Positions 5,494 to 57,197 of a stretch of 57,197 nucleotides of DNA are shown one piece after another. The stretch spans positions 1 through 57,197 of the forward strand of contig NZ_BOON01000061.1 of the NCBI RefSeq assembly GCF_016863255.1, given 5' to 3'. The stretch comes from Planosporangium mesophilum (GTDB taxonomy: Bacteria; Actinomycetota; Actinomycetes; Mycobacteriales; Micromonosporaceae). The number at the start of each line of letters is the position of its first letter. Position 1 is the first letter of the stretch. The notes under the pieces are model-generated. The model saw only the letters and a program-made list of their open reading frames with translations. It did no database searches and was not told the origin of the DNA. A program made the position numbers and the translations under genes.

Positions 5494-5844
5494 CACCGGA
5501 CCCCTTGGCGTCAACCCCGCGACCGATTCCCACCCGCAGCCCCGTCGCGACCGCCACCGATCCGACCATGACCGGCGTCGCCTACGGTGTCCGGCGCGGT
5601 CGCCCGGGTCCGGCGTACGACCCTGCAGTGGAGGGCGGCCACCGCTGTAGCAGCGCGAAGGGAACGGCCGAGAACGGCAGATGCAAAGACCTTGTTCGAG
5701 GGTCGGCATCACCCGCCTCACACTCGCCGTGGCCGAACGAACGGCCTCGTGGTGGACCCCGGCGCGGACTACCCCCGCCCGGAGGGCGGAAACGCACCCG
5801 CCGCAACTCGTGCGGATTCAGTACGTACCGGTCGGCGCCGCCGG
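5494..5844. other. 351-bp intergenic region, no gene seen
   Basis: Lies between two minus-strand genes and must hold the leader of the pyruvyl transferase. Apart from a short GC-rich inverted repeat near 5778-5792 I see no promoter hexamers, RNA or conserved frame that I can support. Confidence 0.4.
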
Positions 5845-7905
5845 TCACGGACGGTCGTCGAGCCCGTGGTTGTGGCTCCAGCAGCCACCGACGGGGCTGT
5901 TGTCGAAGCGCGCGGCCTCGACCGCGTTGCCCTCGAAGTTGTTGTCCTCGATCCACCCGTACCCGCACCTGCCCCGTTCGGTGATCCAGAAGCCGTGCGT
6001 CTGGGTCTTCGGGTGCTGGCTGTCCCAGACCCGGTTGCCGCGTACGGTCATCCGCTCCGCGACCTCGGCCAGGGTGACACCGGCGCGGGTGGCGGGCGAG
6101 TGCGCGAGCCGGTACGGCGCGCCCTGGGGCGGCGGGTCGGCGGTCCACGCGGTCGTCTGGCCGGGGCTGCGGGGCGCCAGACGCAGTTCGGTCGCGGTGT
6201 TGCCGATCACGATCACGCGCTCGGTGCCCACCGCCAGCCACTTGCCGAGGTGGCCGTCCGGCAGCCAGTCGGCGCTCGGGTCGCACAGTGACGCGGGTCC
6301 GTAGCTGACGTTCTCCGCCTCCCTGCAGACGCCGGGTTCGCAGCGCCTGCCGTTGTTGCGGATCCGGTTGTCGACCAGGGCACCATCGGTGAGCGCCGCG
6401 TCCACCCGGATGCCGTCCAGCGCGTTGGCCCAGATCTCGTTGCCGTTCAGGGCGATGTCTCCGGCCGGCTCGCCGTTACCGCCGCCGATGTTGTGCTGCC
6501 AGTACCCGTACCGGCCGTTGCCGCTGATCCGGTTCGCGGTGAAGGTGTACGGGCCTGGGGTGTTACCGATCCCGAGGCCGTCGCGGACGTTGCGGTCGAT
6601 GACGCAGTTGGTCACGATGCCGCCGCGCCCCGCAATGGTCGACGTGCCGAGCGCCGAGACGTCGTACCCGGCCTCGTGGTTGCGGATCATCGTGCAGGCC
6701 GACACGATCAGCCCCTCCGCGCCCCAGTCGGAGATGCCGAACCGGTTGCCCTCGGCGTGGCAGCCGATGATCCGGATGCCAAGGGGCGGCGGCCACAGGT
6801 GCTGCTGCATCTCGACGAAGATCCCGTTGGCGCCGTTGTCGACGGCGGTGCAGTCGGCGATCGTGAGGCGTTCGACCGCGCCCCAGCCGCCGATCCCGAT
6901 GCCGATGCCGGCGCCGCCCATCTCCACGCCGCTGCCGAGCCGGCCGCAGCGCTCGGCCACCACGCTCTCGATCATCGTGTCCTGCAGGTGGTCGCAGCCG
7001 AGGCCACTGGCGCCGGTGTCGTGGATGTACAGGTCGCGGAACCGGGCCCGCAGCATGTACTGCATGCCGAGCCCCTTGGCGAGCACGTTGTACTTCGACA
7101 GCGCCACCCCGGAGCCATCGATCTCGAAGCGCGCGAACGTGCAGTCGGCCAGGTGGTTGTCCCGACTGGCGCCGTGCTGCACCGCGGTGAAGAAGGCCAG
7201 CGGCGTCGGGTCGGCGTGGTTGCCGGGGTTGGCCAGCAGGAACCGGGTCACGCCCGGGCCGGCGCCGACCAGCGACACCCCGCTGCGCCACCGGGTGCCC
7301 TCGTCGCGGATCGAGTACCGGCCGGGCGGGCAGTAGATGATGCGCCCCTGGCCGTCGGCTTCGTACGCGTCGCCGACCGCGTCGACCAGCGCGGCCAGCG
7401 CCGGCTGGTCGTTGGTGATCCCGTCGCCGGCCAGGCCGTGCTCGCGAGCGTTGTAGATCAGCGGGTCCGCCGGCCGCGGCAGGACCTGGACGCCGCTGCC
7501 GCGCCCGTCCCCGCCGCTCGGCTGGGTACGACCGGATGCCGTCACCTCCCCGCGCCGGCCGTCCCCGTTCCCGTGCGACGCGGCGGCCAGGCTGACGGTC
7601 CGCTCGGTCGCCGGCAGCTCCATGGAGTACGTGCGGCTGGGGGCGTCGGACCACCGCTCGGTCACCCGGTACGTCCAGCCCGCCGGCGTGACCCCCTTGG
7701 CGTCCGTGGCGAGCAGTTCGAGGCTGAACCGGCCGGACTCGTCGAGCCGGGCCTCCGCCCGGCCGAGCACGATGAGGCCCTGCTCGGCGCTGCTGAGTTG
7801 GGCGGGCTCCGGCTCGACGAGTACGCTGCCGCGACACGGTCGGCCGTCCGGGTGCAGGTACTGCCCGGTCACCACGACCGTCTGCAGACCCTCCGGAAGA
7901 CTCAT
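5845..7905 (-). CDS. Right-handed parallel beta-helix protein (pectate-lyase-3-like)
   Basis: 686-residue protein. Residues 1-110 look like a beta-sandwich (a VVVTGQYLHPDGRPCRG opening as in carboxypeptidase-regulatory-like or adaptor domains). After a Gly/Ser linker, about residue 150 starts a pectate-lyase-3-type segment with NAREHGLAGDGITNDQPAL and CPPGRYSI, typical of beta-helix enzymes and phage/glycan depolymerase spikes. Repeated N-G-x-x-G and R-D-N turns (for example NNGANGIFVEM, RNHEAGYDVS, NRISGNGRYGYW) indicate a long solenoid. No signal peptide or membrane segment is visible, unlike secreted pectinases. It could be a cytosolic epimerase/lyase-like protein, or one exported by a non-Sec route. 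The substrate is unknown; the neighbouring pyruvyl transferase hints at surface polysaccharide. Confidence 0.7.
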   Translation of the reverse strand: MSLPEGLQTVVVTGQYLHPDGRPCRGSVLVEPEPAQLSSAEQGLIVLGRAEARLDESGRFSLELLATDAKGVTPAGWTYRVTERWSDAPSRTYSMELPATERTVSLAAASHGNGDGRRGEVTASGRTQPSGGDGRGSGVQVLPRPADPLIYNAREHGLAGDGITNDQPALAALVDAVGDAYEADGQGRIIYCPPGRYSIRDEGTRWRSGVSLVGAGPGVTRFLLANPGNHADPTPLAFFTAVQHGASRDNHLADCTFARFEIDGSGVALSKYNVLAKGLGMQYMLRARFRDLYIHDTGASGLGCDHLQDTMIESVVAERCGRLGSGVEMGGAGIGIGIGGWGAVERLTIADCTAVDNGANGIFVEMQQHLWPPPLGIRIIGCHAEGNRFGISDWGAEGLIVSACTMIRNHEAGYDVSALGTSTIAGRGGIVTNCVIDRNVRDGLGIGNTPGPYTFTANRISGNGRYGYWQHNIGGGNGEPAGDIALNGNEIWANALDGIRVDAALTDGALVDNRIRNNGRRCEPGVCREAENVSYGPASLCDPSADWLPDGHLGKWLAVGTERVIVIGNTATELRLAPRSPGQTTAWTADPPPQGAPYRLAHSPATRAGVTLAEVAERMTVRGNRVWDSQHPKTQTHGFWITERGRCGYGWIEDNNFEGNAVEAARFDNSPVGGCWSHNHGLDDRP

Positions 7906-52534: not shown

Positions 52535-52596
52535 CTGCTGATCTTGGGGAACCGTGGTGCAGGCTGGACCGGGACGACTGAACGGGAAGGACCGAC

Positions 52597-53244
52597 GTGC
52601 CATTCAGCGACCGCGTCGAGGCGGGGCGACGGCTGGCGCTCGCGCTGACGCACCTGGCCGGAAGCGACGTCGTGGTCCTCGGCCTACCGCGGGGCGGTGT
52701 ACCGGTCGCGTTCGAGGTCGCACGCGCCCTCGACGCGCCGCTCGACGTGATCGTCGTACGCAAGATCGGCGTGCCGTGGCAGCCCGAGCTCGCGATGGGG
52801 GCGGTGGGCGAGAACGGCGCCACCATCGTCAACACCGCCGTGGTGCAGGCCGCCCAGGTCGAGCCGAGCGAGTTGGCGGCCGCGGCCGCCGCCGCCCGGG
52901 GCGAGCTCGACCGGCGGGTCGAGCGCCTGCGCGGCGACCGGCCCCGCGTCGACCTGGCCGGCCGGACCGCGATCGTGGTCGACGACGGCATCGCCACCGG
53001 GGCGACGGCCCGTGTCGCCTGCGGAGTGGCGAGAGCGCAGGGCGCCGACCGGGTCGTCCTCGCCGTACCGGTGGGGTCGCCCCACGCCGTCGCGGCGATG
53101 GCGGACGCCGCCGACGAGGTGATCTGCGTCGAGCAGCCCGCCGGCTTCCAGGCCGTCGGCCAGTACTACGAGGACTTCAGCGCGACCACCGACGCGGACG
53201 TGACGGCGCTGCTGGCCCAGGCCGCGGCGGCGCGCGGATCATGA
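52597..53244 (+). CDS. Phosphoribosyltransferase (type I PRTase)
   Basis: 215-residue PRTase with LGLPRGGVPVAFEVARAL and the PRPP-binding loop AIVVDDGIATGATA. The closest known relatives I recall are the N-terminal part of Rv0571c and other short actinobacterial PRTases; the base substrate is unknown. The ATG at 52597 follows GGAAGGA. It overlaps the next gene by four bases (ATGA), so is the head of a three-gene operon with nicotinate PRTase and universal stress protein, a set like the dormancy genes of M. tuberculosis. Confidence 0.85.
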   Translation: MPFSDRVEAGRRLALALTHLAGSDVVVLGLPRGGVPVAFEVARALDAPLDVIVVRKIGVPWQPELAMGAVGENGATIVNTAVVQAAQVEPSELAAAAAAARGELDRRVERLRGDRPRVDLAGRTAIVVDDGIATGATARVACGVARAQGADRVVLAVPVGSPHAVAAMADAADEVICVEQPAGFQAVGQYYEDFSATTDADVTALLAQAAAARGS

Positions 53245-54614
53245 CCATGTCGGGGCTCTACACGGACCTGTACGAGCTGCGGATGGCGGCGAGCTACCTG
53301 CGTCGCGGCCTGGTCGGGCCGGCCACCTTCAGCCTGGTGATCCGGGCGCTGCCGCCCGAGCGGGGATTCCTCGTCGCCGCCGGCCTCGCCGACGCGCTGA
53401 CGTTCCTGGAGCGCTTCGACTTCGACGACGCCGAGCTGGACTACCTGCGTACCAGCCGGAGCCTGCCGGACGACGCGGTACAGGCCCTGCGTGACCTGCG
53501 GTTCACCGGCGATGTGTGGGCCGTACCCGAGGGCCGGATGGTCTTCGCCGGCGAGCCGCTGCTCGAGGTCACCGCCCCGGCCGCGGAGGCCCAGCTCGTG
53601 GAGACAGCTCTGCTCAACATCGTCACCCACCAGACCGCGATCGCGTCCAAGGCCGCCCGCTGCCGGTTGGCCGCCGGCGGCGCCGACCTGGTCGACTTCA
53701 GCTTCCGGCGTACCCACGGCCTGGAGGCGGCGATGGCCGTCGCGCGGGCCTCGGCGATCGTCGGATTCGCCGCGACGAGCAACACGGAGGCGGGCCGCCG
53801 GTACGGGCTGCGGGTCACCGGCACGATGGCGCACTCGTACGTGGAGTCGTTCCCGGACGAGCGCAGCGCCTTCGCCGCGTTCGCCACCGACTACCCCACC
53901 GACACGGTCTTCCTCGTCGACACGTACGACACCCTCGGCGGTGTACGCACCGCAATCGACGTGACCCGGCAACTGCGCCTGTCCGGCCCGATCGGGGTAC
54001 GCCTCGACTCCGGCGATCTCGCCCGGCTCGCCGTCGCCGCCCGTCAACTCCTCGACCGGGAAGGGCTGACCGATGCCCGCATCGTGGCCAGCGGCGGGCT
54101 CGACGAGTACGCCATCGCCGACCTGGTCGGCTCGGGCGCGCCGATCGACGCGTACGGCGTCGGCACCAGGATGGGCGTGTCCGCCGACGCGCCGTACCTC
54201 GACAGCGCGTACAAGTTGGTCACTTTCGGCGACCGGCCGGTCATGAAGCTGTCGCCTGGAAAGGTCACCCTGCCCGGGGCCAAGCAGGTCTTTCGCGGTG
54301 CTGGCGGCGGCGCGGATGTCATCGGCCTGCGGACCGAGGTCGCGCCGCCCGGACACACCCTGCTGCTGCGCCCCGTCATGGCGGTCGGCCAACGCCTGGC
54401 CACCACCGACGAGTACGGCCCGGCGGACGATGTCGCCGCGGCGCGTCACCGGTTCGACGACGACCTGGCCCGCCTACCCGAACCGACCCGCCGGGTGTAC
54501 GACCCGAGCACGCCGGAGCCGACGATCAGCCCGGCGCTGCAGCGGCTGCGCGAGGACGTACTGGGTGCGCTTCTCGACCGTCGAGCCGCCGAGCGCCTAC
54601 CGGTATCGGGATGA
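53241..54614 (+). CDS. pncB: Nicotinate phosphoribosyltransferase (PncB2-like)
   Basis: 457-residue enzyme that makes nicotinate mononucleotide from nicotinate, PRPP and ATP, feeding NAD salvage. Family blocks are LYTDLYELRMAASYLRRGL (start), FSFRRTHGLEAAMAVARAS, TMAHSYVESFPDERSAF, GVRLDSGDLARLAV and VASGGLDEYAIADLV. The ATG at 53241 overlaps the previous stop. It is of the length of mycobacterial PncB2 (Rv0573c), which is part of the DosR regulon. The stop overlaps the next gene. Confidence 0.92.
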   Translation: MTMSGLYTDLYELRMAASYLRRGLVGPATFSLVIRALPPERGFLVAAGLADALTFLERFDFDDAELDYLRTSRSLPDDAVQALRDLRFTGDVWAVPEGRMVFAGEPLLEVTAPAAEAQLVETALLNIVTHQTAIASKAARCRLAAGGADLVDFSFRRTHGLEAAMAVARASAIVGFAATSNTEAGRRYGLRVTGTMAHSYVESFPDERSAFAAFATDYPTDTVFLVDTYDTLGGVRTAIDVTRQLRLSGPIGVRLDSGDLARLAVAARQLLDREGLTDARIVASGGLDEYAIADLVGSGAPIDAYGVGTRMGVSADAPYLDSAYKLVTFGDRPVMKLSPGKVTLPGAKQVFRGAGGGADVIGLRTEVAPPGHTLLLRPVMAVGQRLATTDEYGPADDVAAARHRFDDDLARLPEPTRRVYDPSTPEPTISPALQRLREDVLGALLDRRAAERLPVSG

Positions 54615-55453
54615 TCGTGATGCTGGGTGATCGCCATGTGGGCAGTGGATCCCGGCCCGTCGTGGTCGGCGTCGACGACTCAGCCGCCGGGCTCGCCGCG
54701 GCCCGGCTGGCCGCCGCGGAGGCCGTACTGCACCGGCGGTCACTGCGGTTACTGGCGGCCGATCCCGAGCCCGCGGTCGGTGCGATCCGGGACGACCATC
54801 CGGCGCTTCCGATCGAGCGCGAAACGGTACCCGGAGACCTGGCCGACGCGCTCGTCGAACGCTCCCGCGCCGCCCATCTCGTCGTGGTGGCCACCGGTGC
54901 TGCCGGCATCGGCTCCTCGCCGCAGGTCGCTGATCCGATCGGCGTACGGGTGGCCGCGCACGCCGGCTGCCCGGTCATCATCGACCCGGCCGGGCGCGCG
55001 GCGCTGACCGGCCCGGTCCTGCTCGGCATCGACGAGGAGGCGGAGGAGCCGACGGTCGTCGAGTACGCCTTCGCCGAGGCGCTGGTCCGGGGCGTACCGC
55101 TGTGCGGCGTACACATCTGGGCCGGGCTTCCCGGCGAGGCGCTCAGCACGCTCGACCCGTTCGCCTACGACGCCCGGGCGGCCGACGACGACGTCGATCG
55201 GCTCCTGGCCGAGGCGCTCGCCGGCTGGGCCAGCCGGTACCCGGACGTGCCGGTGCAGCGGCGCGCGGTACACAACCCGAACACCGCCCACGCCATGATC
55301 GAGCTGAGTACCGACGCCGCGCTGATGGTGGTGAGCGCCCGCCGCCACGCCGGCCTCAGCGGGATGCTGCTCGGGTCGGTCACCGGCGCCCTGATCGGGC
55401 GGGCGCGCTGCCCGCTCGCGATCGTGCCCGCGCGCTGCGTCTGGCCCGGTTGA
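54611..55453 (+). CDS. Tandem universal stress protein
   Basis: 280-residue protein with two UspA-like domains. The first runs from VVVGVDDSAAGLAAARLAAAEA to about residue 130; the second from VLLGIDEEAEEPTVVEYAFAEAL ends with GSVTGALIGRARCPLAIVPA, close to the ATP-binding G-x2-G-x9-G(S/T) motif but degraded in its inner part. It overlaps the pncB stop by four bases. Actinobacterial tandem UspA proteins of this kind are induced by hypoxia or stress. Confidence 0.9.
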   Translation: MIVMLGDRHVGSGSRPVVVGVDDSAAGLAAARLAAAEAVLHRRSLRLLAADPEPAVGAIRDDHPALPIERETVPGDLADALVERSRAAHLVVVATGAAGIGSSPQVADPIGVRVAAHAGCPVIIDPAGRAALTGPVLLGIDEEAEEPTVVEYAFAEALVRGVPLCGVHIWAGLPGEALSTLDPFAYDARAADDDVDRLLAEALAGWASRYPDVPVQRRAVHNPNTAHAMIELSTDAALMVVSARRHAGLSGMLLGSVTGALIGRARCPLAIVPARCVWPG

Positions 55454-55535
55454 GTTGTCTCGCCGCCGACGCCGTACCGGCCCCCGCCGCTTCAACGCGA
55501 GCAGATCGGGGATGGGGGTCGCGCCCTGCTACCGG

Positions 55536-55541
55536 TATGAT
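55536..55541 (+). promoter_or_regulatory. Candidate -10 element of the trpS leader transcript
   Basis: TATGAT fits the -10 consensus closely, and transcription would then begin at about 55549, exactly at the GTG of a leader peptide. The -35 region at about 55513 (TGGGGG) is poor. Confidence 0.5.
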
Positions 55542-55548
55542 CTGTGTC

Positions 55549-55599
55549 GTGCTGCACGCTTCCCGCACCTGGTGGTGGCCGTCCTTCCGGCGGCCGTGA
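55549..55599 (+). CDS. Trp leader peptide of the trpS attenuator
   Basis: A 16-codon frame GTG-CTG-CAC... encodes MLHASRTWWWPSFRRP. Three consecutive TGG codons (55570-55578) are followed by a terminator-like hairpin at 55614-55633 and the trpS start at 55702. The likely start of transcription coincides with the GTG, so the peptide is probably translated from a leaderless mRNA, as are Streptomyces trp leader peptides. An ATG four codons upstream (55537) is an alternative start in the same frame. Trp codons in a run of three are rare by chance. Confidence 0.8.
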   Translation: MLHASRTWWWPSFRRP

Positions 55600-55633
55600 C
55601 CTGATCCTGTCTTGAGCCGCCTTCGGGCGGCTC
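55577..55633 (+). terminator. Attenuator: mutually exclusive hairpins upstream of trpS
   Basis: Region 3:4 is a perfect terminator stem GAGCCGCC (55614-55621), TTCG loop, GGCGGCTC (55626-55633). Region 2, GGCGGC at 55589-55594, can instead pair with GCCGCC at 55616-55621 and block it. Region 1, GGCCG at 55577-55581 just after the Trp codons, can pair with CGGCC at 55591-55595 and sequester region 2. A ribosome stalled on the Trp codons covers region 1, freeing region 2 to form the antiterminator. The geometry is that of ribosome-mediated attenuation. A weak T tail follows the stem. Confidence 0.75.
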
Positions 55634-55701
55634 GGCGGCGCACATACTCTGGCAGCGCGACCGTGACGGCGAAGGTGGCTCCCAACCTCCGGGAGATACC
55701 C

Positions 55702-56769
55702 GTGACCGTTGTCGCCGACGACTCCTTCGCTGTCGTCGCCAACCGCAGCGCCCAGCTTGAGCACGAAATCGCCGAGCATCCCGATCGATTCCGCGTATTG
55801 ACCGGGGACCGGCCCACCGGCCCACTGCACCTCGGGCACTACTTCGGAACCCTCGCCAACCGGGTCCGCTTGCAACGCGCCGGTGTCGAGGTGTTCCTCG
55901 TCATCGCCGACTACCAGGTCATCACCGACCGCGACAGCGTCGGCAACCTGTCTGGCAACGTGCGAGAGCTTCTCCTTGACTACCTCGCCGCAGGCGTCGA
56001 TCCGACAACCGCGACCATCTTCACCCACAGCGCGGTACCCGCCCTCAACCAGCTGATGCTGCCGTTTCTCAGCCTCGTCAGCGTCGCCGAGTTGCACCGC
56101 AACCCTACGGTCAAGGCAGAGGCCGAGGCGGCAGGCGGACGCGCGTTGAGCGGCCTGCTGTTCACCTACCCCGTCCATCAGGCCGCCGACATCCTCTTCT
56201 GCCGAGGCAACCTCGTCCCGGTCGGCAAAGACCAGCTTCCTCACGTGGAGATGACCCGGCTCATCGCCCGCCGGTTCAACGAACGCTTCGCCGCCGGAGC
56301 CGAGGTCTTCCCGGCGCCAGACGCACTGATCAGCGACGCACCGCTGCTGCTCGGCGTCGACGGGACCAAGATGAGCAAGAGCCGTGACAACGCGGTCGAG
56401 CTGCGCGACAACGAAGACCGCACGGCGCGGCTCATCCGTCGCGCCAAGACCGACGGCGAACGGACCGTCAGCTATGAACCTCACCGCCGCCCTGAAGTGG
56501 CCAGCCTGCTACTCATAGCCGCGCTGTGCACCGGACGAGCACCGCAGGACCTTGCCGAGGAGATCGGCGGCCGCGGTGCCGCCGCGCTCAAGGCCCTCGT
56601 CACCGAGGCCATCAACGAGTACCTGCGACCACTCCGGAAGCGGCGCCAAGCCATCGCCACCGACCCCGGCTATCTGCGTCAGGTCCTCCTCGAAGGCAAC
56701 GCTCGTGCGAATCAGATCGCGGAACAGACCCTCCAGCAGGTCCGATCGGTCATGGACATGGCCTACTGA
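55702..56769 (+). CDS. trpS: Auxiliary tryptophanyl-tRNA synthetase (TrpRS1-like)
   Basis: 355-residue class I synthetase that charges tRNA-Trp. The start is GTG 55702, seven bases after GGGAG; the earlier in-frame TTG lies inside the attenuator. The HIGH motif is HLGH in GDRPTGPLHLGHYFG, KMSKS is in GTKMSKSRDN, and the tryptophan-binding/dimer regions (HQAADILFCRG, VGKDQLPHVEMTR) are intact. By leader and size it matches the auxiliary TrpRS of Streptomyces coelicolor (TrpRS1), which is inducible and insensitive to indolmycin; resistance in this case is inferred. Confidence 0.92.
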   Translation: MTVVADDSFAVVANRSAQLEHEIAEHPDRFRVLTGDRPTGPLHLGHYFGTLANRVRLQRAGVEVFLVIADYQVITDRDSVGNLSGNVRELLLDYLAAGVDPTTATIFTHSAVPALNQLMLPFLSLVSVAELHRNPTVKAEAEAAGGRALSGLLFTYPVHQAADILFCRGNLVPVGKDQLPHVEMTRLIARRFNERFAAGAEVFPAPDALISDAPLLLGVDGTKMSKSRDNAVELRDNEDRTARLIRRAKTDGERTVSYEPHRRPEVASLLLIAALCTGRAPQDLAEEIGGRGAAALKALVTEAINEYLRPLRKRRQAIATDPGYLRQVLLEGNARANQIAEQTLQQVRSVMDMAY

Positions 56770-56903: not shown

Positions 56904-56964
56904 TCGGGACCCCTCCCCCGGGTGTGTGAGTGTCTTGTCGTACGCCTGTGGCACGGTCACCGGT

Positions 56965-57197
56965 GTGCAGCTGCGTTACAACTTCCGCGTCTACCCGACG
57001 CCCCGTCAGCAGATCGAACTGGCGCGGGCGTTCGGGTGTGCGCGGGTGGTGTTCAACGACGGGCTGCGCGCACGTCGGGAAGCTCACGAGGCCGGCCTGC
57101 CCTACGTCTCGGACGCCGAGTTGTCCAGGCAGGTCATCACGCAGGCCAAACAGAGCCCGGATCGGGCCTGGCTCTGCGAGGTCTCGGCGGTGGTGCT
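56965..57197 (+). CDS. tnpB: IS605-type TnpB (OrfB), 5' part only
   Basis: Partial gene running off the window. From GTG 56965 it reads MQLRYNFRVYPTPRQQIELA, then RAFGCARVVFNDGLRARREA. This is the N-terminal HTH_OrfB region of IS200/IS605/IS607-family TnpB, an RNA-guided DNA nuclease related to Cas12 ancestors. Only about 77 residues are visible; the RuvC motifs and zinc finger would lie outside. No tnpA or serine recombinase is seen upstream, so it is probably a stand-alone tnpB element. Confidence 0.85.
   Translation, partial: MQLRYNFRVYPTPRQQIELARAFGCARVVFNDGLRARREAHEAGLPYVSDAELSRQVITQAKQSPDRAWLCEVSAVV

Follow-up and report, generated by a model that had tools for sequence, protein, structure and literature searches.

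A leaderless tryptophan leader as the probable attenuator of an auxiliary tryptophanyl-tRNA synthetase gene in Planosporangium mesophilum

What controls trpS2, an auxiliary tryptophanyl-tRNA synthetase (TrpRS) gene near the end of a 57,197-nt contig of Planosporangium mesophilum (NZ_BOON01000061.1)? That stretch, which is one whole contig of the host genome (G000), is the window of this analysis, and individual loci carry L-numbers. Just upstream of trpS2 is a short open reading frame (ORF) with three tandem tryptophan (Trp) codons, which an earlier note on this DNA took for a leaderless leader peptide forming part of an attenuator. We consider it very probable, on sequence grounds, that a leaderless, ribosome-mediated Trp attenuator controls the gene. 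Comparison among relatives supports the leader, its start context, its Trp run, three competing helices, and the auxiliary status of the gene; the direction of the response (induction on shortage of Trp-tRNA) and the halting of RNA polymerase by the last hairpin are what we infer.

The elements named in the earlier note (TATGAT, GTG, the TGG run, the TTCG stem, and two competing pairings) proved exact to the base, and Table 1 gives their positions with those of the other features. With its start GTG (55549-55551) translated as Met because it is the initiation codon, the leader reads VLHASRTWWWPSFRRP and closes at the stop codon 55597-55599. Downstream, GAGCCGCC-TTCG-GGCGGCTC at 55614-55633 makes eight perfect pairs, and the two competing pairings are exact: 55577-55581/55591-55595 (GGCCG/CGGCC) and 55589-55594/55616-55621 (GGCGGC/GCCGCC). 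GTG 55702, behind GGGAG 55691-55695, is the best-supported start of trpS2, and a start led by a Shine-Dalgarno (SD) sequence could be located for the TrpRS gene at 64 of 66 leader loci. The pattern TANNNT-N6,7-RTG...TGGTGG, with the frame not enforced, matches the 57-kb window once, at the leader (shuffles: mean 0.07, with one match in 7 of 100).

Table 1. Positions of the leader elements and trpS2 in the window
Feature	Position	Strand	Basis and remarks
-10 element TATGAT	55536..55541	+	Read from sequence; 7 nt upstream of leader GTG; without recognisable -35
Leader peptide ORF, GTG...TGA, 16 codons, MLHASRTWWWPSFRRP	55549..55599	+	Sequence; read as leaderless
Three tandem Trp codons (TGG x3), candidate sensor	55570..55578	+	Sequence
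Arm 1, partner arm 2 (55589-55597)	55575..55583	+	Computed fold and four-locus alignment
Arm 2, partner arm 1, or arm 3 via 55589-55594	55589..55597	+	Alignment and shuffles
Arm 3 GAGCCGCC, partner arm 2, arm 4, possibly 4'	55614..55621	+	Alignment, shuffles, permutations
Arm 4 GGCGGCTC, shuts UUCG hairpin with arm 3; without U-tract 3'	55626..55633	+	Alignment
Element 4' GGTGGCTCCC; CTCCC could pair with SD, GGTGGCTC with arm 3	55674..55683	+	Motif counts
SD sequence GGGAG of trpS2	55691..55695	+	Sequence; 6 nt upstream of trpS2 GTG
Auxiliary TrpRS gene trpS2, 355 aa, TrpRS-II-like	55702..56769	+	TIGR00233; PDB relatives

Is such a leader a regular companion of the gene? We compared 110 loci: 80 from GTDB, top-ranked among 568 confirmed, and the top 30 sites in 201 genomes, one of which is the window. 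An ORF of 6-30 codons with in-frame TGGTGG lies upstream of the gene in 65 of them, and 63 have a WW or WWW ORF whose start follows TANNNT at a gap of 6 or 7 nt. The same search at the primary trpS loci L114-L143 found 0 of 30 (one locus having just 107 bases), and 20 rounds of dinucleotide shuffles averaged 1.1 ORFs (at most 4), none with a -10. An earlier selection of 5-30 codons had yielded 66 leaders, from which L027 and L048, chance-like ORFs without a -10, were dropped to leave 64. In these, the TANNNT gap is 6 in 39, 7 in 24, and 9 in one, with any other offset up to 39 occurring at most once, and the counts carry a bias in that the start having the -10 was chosen at loci with several in-frame starts. 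An SD-like word precedes 3 of the 64, which hold two Trp residues in 50 cases and three in 14. The Trp sensor looks leaderless in 63 of the 64 leaders, that of the window having no SD sequence and its -10 within 5-7 nt of the start codon. That range covers 88.7% of spacers between -10 and start, according to the available part of PMC8079986.

Variants of the leader also occur: in L064, L068, L075, and L087 it has the -10 but a single Trp, in L099 it carries WRW, and L100 and L101, judged by eye, show WRW and WSW, TANNNT being absent. Two genes fetched later lie outside the 110, one with a WW leader (L163) and one with none (L162). The DNA similarity found by blastn runs in L085 from 55548, the base preceding the leader start codon, to 56767, and the only other stretch of the window matching L085 is 5832-7129, 48 kb off. 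Similarity begins at 55550 in L086 and at 55564 in L004, and DNA identity in these three loci is 73-78%. Leader and gene have likely spread as one unit.

Are the helices real and mutually exclusive? In an alignment of the nearest four loci (the window, L085, L086, and L004), helix 1:2 has standard pairs at 7 of 9 positions in all four, the remaining two being standard in three and two loci, and includes a change from C-G to T-A in L004. Helix 2:3 is standard at 6 of 6 pairs in all four loci, a change from G-C to A-T included, and helix 3:4 at 8 of 8, where both partners of one pair differ in L085 and L004. The coupled positions 55580/55592/55618/55629 read C/G/C/G in the window and L086, T/A/T/A in L004, and C/G/T/A in L085, which leaves a G-U in 2:3. 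All three helices, which exclude one another, thus covary with changes on both sides, and the competition between pairings that the earlier note had read from one sequence holds up in comparison. As for its proposed check on conservation, both the TGG run and the pairings are kept, the former together with the TANNNT spacing at the 63 of 110 loci, which bears out the leaderless Trp leader as well.

Shuffles and permutations point the same way, to different degrees. In the window, the 2:3 duplex (-17.2) beats 200 of 200 shuffles of segment 2 (mean -8.7), and the 114-nt leader as a whole is only modestly stabler than its shuffles (z -1.72; 10 of 200 equally stable). When hand-picked elements were swapped among 19 loci for 500 rounds, equally good pairings arose 0 times for 1:2, once for 2:3, and 0 times for 3:4, so the pairings are locus-specific, albeit with elements picked knowing the pairings and among related loci. 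These 19 are the loci of the window architecture, i.e., 15 rows that group on a FastTree tree (support 83) plus L106, L099, L100, and L101, which group elsewhere. With automatic hairpin choice, which frequently took in a T-run or a later hairpin and whose U counts were set aside, 2:3 ranks above 95% of shuffles at 27 of 63 loci (8/15 of the window architecture, 19/48 of the others). By eye, the linker 55600-55613 (CCTGACCCTGTCCC-like) resembles that of same-architecture relatives; it has no obvious pairing partner in the window's nearest relatives.

The layout of this short, translatable ORF with its tandem Trp codons suits a stalling ribosome. Arm 2 begins 19 nt past the start of the first Trp codon and is touched by the stop codon, and a ribosome has a footprint of about 13 nt. 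Transcription would begin at or beside GTG 55549, with a ribosome loading straight onto the start codon. With ample Trp-tRNA, it would reach the stop at 55597 and cover arm 2, so that arms 3 and 4 could close the UUCG hairpin and turn trpS2 off. When Trp-tRNA is short, because Trp is lacking or the primary TrpRS is inhibited, the ribosome would stall on UGG 55570-55578 and leave arm 2 (11-19 nt past the codons) free to pair with arm 3. The 3:4 hairpin would then fail to form, trpS2 would be made, and the enzyme would restore charging. Less surely, 4' may shut the SD sequence in read-through RNA, providing a second brake, on translation.

The earlier note had claimed that trpS2 is auxiliary, and here the claim stands. 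The protein scores 238.6 bits against TIGR00233 (curated cut-off 176.75), and the host has three PF00579 genes, which encode tyrosyl-tRNA synthetase (TIGR00234), a primary TrpRS, and the window TrpRS, both TrpRSs exceeding the TIGR00233 cut-off. GC at third codon positions is 82% in trpS2 and 93% in the primary trpS, and window-type TrpRSs are 36-37% identical to primary TrpRS. The closest solved relatives are PDB 1yi8 and 2a4m (223 bits), the latter named TrpRS II; we take both to be Deinococcus proteins, and their source presumably belongs to another phylum than the host. TrpRS II has been described in partnership with nitric-oxide synthase (PMC9437257, available part). Among the 201 genomes, 39 (host included) hold a trpS2-type gene (E <= 1e-88, at least 54% identity), each with at least two TrpRS-like matches. 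In the host's genus, the gene is present in two of four genomes.

One residue of the protein bears on its likely response to indolmycin. The primary TrpRS has DLH where the window type has DYQ, and D-x-Q is also found at the aligned place in the TrpRS II structures. The Q is kept in all 110 relatives (106 by regular expression, and L092, L099, L100, and L106 from the printed stretch), but one of the six search patterns included Q, so the 80 GTDB loci were partly preselected for it. The H of the primary DLH is, we assume, His43 of B. stearothermophilus TrpRS. The change H43N confers indolmycin resistance on that enzyme (PMC4899734, in the part available). Given Q at the equivalent position, indolmycin insensitivity of the window TrpRS is therefore a fair prediction from sequence.

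Does the sensor go with the auxiliary role? For 39 of the 80 GTDB genomes, picked to span clades with and without the leader, we tallied the PF00579 genes and read three genes as Tyr plus two Trp enzymes and two genes as Tyr plus one Trp enzyme, going by number and not by naming individual genes. L021, with four such genes and no leader, was left out, so 38 genomes were compared. Of the 19 three-gene genomes, 16 show a WW leader, two a one-Trp leader, and one (L050) none; of the 19 two-gene genomes, four show a leader and 15 do not. The sensor therefore tends to accompany auxiliary status, with exceptions both ways. Fisher's test of leader against gene number gives p 2e-4 with one-Trp leaders counted as none, a value uncorrected for kinship, and the leaders follow clades on a quick FastTree tree. 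A lineage of auxiliary TrpRSs that occurs in several actinobacterial families, and that may be insensitive to indolmycin, brings along a Trp sensor of its own.

Besides the missing kinship correction, several observations weigh against our reading. A WW leader having the -10 is absent from 47 of the 110 loci; 19 of these come from genomes whose PF00579 genes were counted, and 15 of the 19 genomes have two. No leader accompanies the gene in L050 and L021, with three and four PF00579 genes, nor in L089, L095, and L162, whose genomes hold a second TrpRS-like match; L064 and L075, with three genes, have one-Trp leaders; and the two-gene genomes of L012, L060, L078, and L081 do show a leader. In L087 and L088, DNA similarity starts inside the gene and not at the leader. 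Several loci do not pass the 2:3 test, among them L007, L010, and L053, where the automatic hairpin looks wrong. A sigma-70-type promoter scan of 55400-55800 found nothing and no -35 is recognisable, although such a scan has little weight for actinobacterial promoters. Finally, the window hairpin is followed by no U-tract (its tail is GGCGGCGCAC), and a terminator scan of 55400-55800 likewise gave none.

The many leaderless relatives, in the sense of genes that have no such leader, raise the alternative that the short ORF is a chance product or remnant and trpS2 is constitutive. In 10 of 27 examined loci lacking a WW leader (L005, L008, L036, L063, L069, L009, L020, L021, L072, and L050), TANNNT lies 6 nt before an in-frame start of the TrpRS gene, which itself looks leaderless there. 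Conservation of leader, spacing, and covariation at 73-78% DNA identity and further out on the tree argues against a chance ORF in the window, and we regard this explanation as very improbable.

How would transcription be stopped? The perfect TTCG stem of the earlier note is there, but as a putative terminator, since a GC-rich hairpin is present and the U-tract of a classical intrinsic terminator does not follow it; a stop of that classical kind is not supported here. Because the U-tract is missing, we can only infer termination by 3:4. The same sensor might instead act through a Rho-dependent stop or a stop at a U-less hairpin, and we give this serious weight, at somewhat less than an even chance. 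The trpL2 leader of S. lividans likewise has two hairpins and no uridine-enriched sequence in the available part of PMC8079986, where termination is nevertheless inferred. T-rich stretches do follow the hairpin in some other leaders, e.g., L022, L093, and L094, which suggests ordinary intrinsic termination there.

Two architectures of the leader differ in this U-richness. In other branches (Streptomyces, Nonomuraea, and Actinomadura), leaders end WWRSS or WWPS and the hairpin is GGCCGT...ACGGCC, often followed by T. A 6-mer with at least four T occurs between stop and gene in 6/19 loci of the window architecture versus 28/48 others; the window's own T lie before the stem, and a fixed 110-nt stretch was used for L087, L099, L100, and L101. 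The window architecture has a GGYGGCUCC-like element, 4', ahead of the SD sequence and able to pair with both it and arm 3.

Element 4' suggests an output at translation, on which we weighed two proposals. The first is a two-level switch in which arms 1-4 would respond to Trp-tRNA at the level of transcription, with arm 3 having the added part of opening the hairpin in which 4' closes the trpS2 SD sequence; arm 3 would be contested by 2:3, 3:4, and 3:4', with 4':SD as the output. If so, RNA escaping a weak U-less terminator would still go untranslated. We offer this tentatively, as possible and somewhat short of probable. The second keeps the sensor but makes the output translational, so that the UUCG hairpin is no terminator, 4':SD closes the ribosome-binding site of trpS2, and 3:4' opens it; this we think unlikely, although the missing U-tract suits it.

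The strongest evidence for the 4':SD pairing is a count. CUCC-N3..14-GGAG, a motif framed after inspecting the sequences, occurs in 16 of 19 window-architecture loci (12/15 and 4/4; shuffles mean 3.5, max 10, n=500) and is missing from L088, L052, and L078, which speaks against a purely translational output. Elsewhere it is at chance level, with 4 of 48 leaders versus 4.5 expected (three of the 48 lack GGAG). A first SD-hairpin test in 15 window-architecture loci found stems of at least 5 in 8 (shuffles 3.05, max 6), at least 6 in 7 (1.34, max 4), and at least 7 in 2 (0.57, max 4); in 49 other loci, stems of at least 6 numbered 3 versus 3.02, i.e., chance. Permutations among the 19 loci gave equally good pairing in 0/500 for 4':SD and 6/500 for 3:4', with the unspecific controls 4:SD and 1:4' at 221 and 450, but an unexpected 2:SD pairing was also borderline (34). 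In the four-locus alignment, 3:4' has 7/8 pairs standard in all loci and the remaining pair in three; for 4':SD it is 1/5 as aligned, with gaps putting the elements out of register. By eye, arm 3 keeps GAGC in nine Oerskovia-type loci, where its A faces a C of arm 4 in seven and a U of 4' is available in eight.

Folding and logic are less kind to the translational output. Equilibrium folding in which a masked ribosome covered either the Trp codons or the stop left the openness of the SD sequence about unchanged (0.22/0.21/0.22 in the window), and the sequence was mostly closed in all states, in the window architecture and in others (21 and 24 loci). The folding therefore gives no support to a translational switch, nor does it locate one. 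A stall would also tie arm 3 to arm 2 and leave 4' free to shut the SD sequence, which by pairing logic is the wrong direction. The SD element raises the question of whether, in actinobacteria, leaders that lack a U-tract act on translation instead of, or besides, termination.

Could 4' instead belong to a T-box or riboswitch controlling trpS2? In principle, the UGGC within it might engage a GCCA end. For actinobacterial ileS, T-boxes that close the SD sequence have been described (PMC1262725). UGGN is not conserved in the 4' of relatives, however, and no Rfam family reached its gathering score in the whole window, where 55500-55760 gave one chance match (E 2.7), so we find this explanation scarcely credible. 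The T-box covariance model gave no match.

How new is the kind of control? The E. coli trp operon leader has an SD-led leader peptide and a U-tract terminator; the window shares its 1:2, 2:3, 3:4 logic and tandem Trp codons but has a leaderless leader and a hairpin without a U-tract. S. coelicolor trpRS1 is reportedly under ribosome-mediated attenuation, according to Vecchione and Sello in 2010, and the earlier note carried its logic over to this locus. The kind of control fits, in that both are auxiliary TrpRS genes under a Trp leader, inducible there and predicted to be so here; the protein lineage probably does not, the window enzyme being TrpRS-II-like and having Q and not H at the indolmycin position. 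We place S. coelicolor TrpRS1 in the lineage with trpL2-like leaders from leader likeness alone. Genes with such leaders are 43-49% identical to primary TrpRS and have DLH in the five of seven that are readable, and the window TrpRS falls outside that lineage. For S. griseus SGR_3809, the work of Vecchione and Sello is cited through PMC6804068.

The nearest precedents are S. lividans trpL1 (WWW, MFAHSTRNWWWTAHPAAH) before trpE and trpL2 (one Trp, MMTRTCTQLWRAA) before trpS, both leaderless according to the part of PMC8079986 available. The earlier note had called leaderlessness an added twist, which it is not, because these two were already reported. The window resembles both in having a leaderless Trp leader before a trpS/trpE-type gene, trpL1 in its WWW, and trpL2 in having no U-rich stretch. 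Unlike the window leader, trpL2 carries a single Trp codon, and it looks like the leaders found with a different auxiliary TrpRS lineage (L154-L160, e.g., MRMTSTGLWRAP); that part of the paper describes no SD-closing element for trpL leaders. Seliverstov et al. (2005) predicted attenuators before trp operons and trpS in Streptomyces and Corynebacterium, S. avermitilis trpS2 included, which share with the window double or triple UGG and competing, GC-rich triple complementarity; a leaderless start and an SD element go unmentioned in the available part of PMC1262725. A literature search, mostly without subscription papers and thus weak evidence of absence, found neither the SD element nor the leader of the window TrpRS lineage described. 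The kind of control is already known, and the window differs in its missing U-tract and in its SD element. It thereby lends itself to a clean test of how tightly leaderless translation can couple to RNA polymerase, and whether this suffices for attenuation.

Trp leaders also turned up beyond this lineage. The separate auxiliary lineage L154-L160 has them in 7/7 fetched loci, some trpL2-like, and a third auxiliary lineage has MRTRIAMWWAADRRP-type leaders in 3/10 (L148, L150, and L153), with one-Trp ORFs only in L146 and L151. Leaders of both have a -10 at leaderless distance, so that three or more TrpRS lineages are accompanied by this control. Among three trpE-family loci of the host, the best trpE match (L164) has no such leader, and one (L166, G000:C27, about 1029) has a WW leader, MSARLNSWWPA, with a TANNNT gap of 7 and its own hairpin; its frame of 661 codons ends like a TrpE-TrpG fusion.

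As for the neighbourhood, a universal stress protein (54611-55453) and a nicotinate phosphoribosyltransferase (52554-54614) are encoded upstream of the leader, and L085 has no match to either within 1.5 kb of trpS2. Downstream, an IS605-type OrfB/TnpB frame (HTH_OrfB_IS605, E 2.9e-17) occupies 56926-57197, at the contig end, and is preceded by inverted repeats (56835-56851/56871-56887 and 56875-56886/56892-56903). Because of this frame and these repeats, a mobile element may border trpS2.
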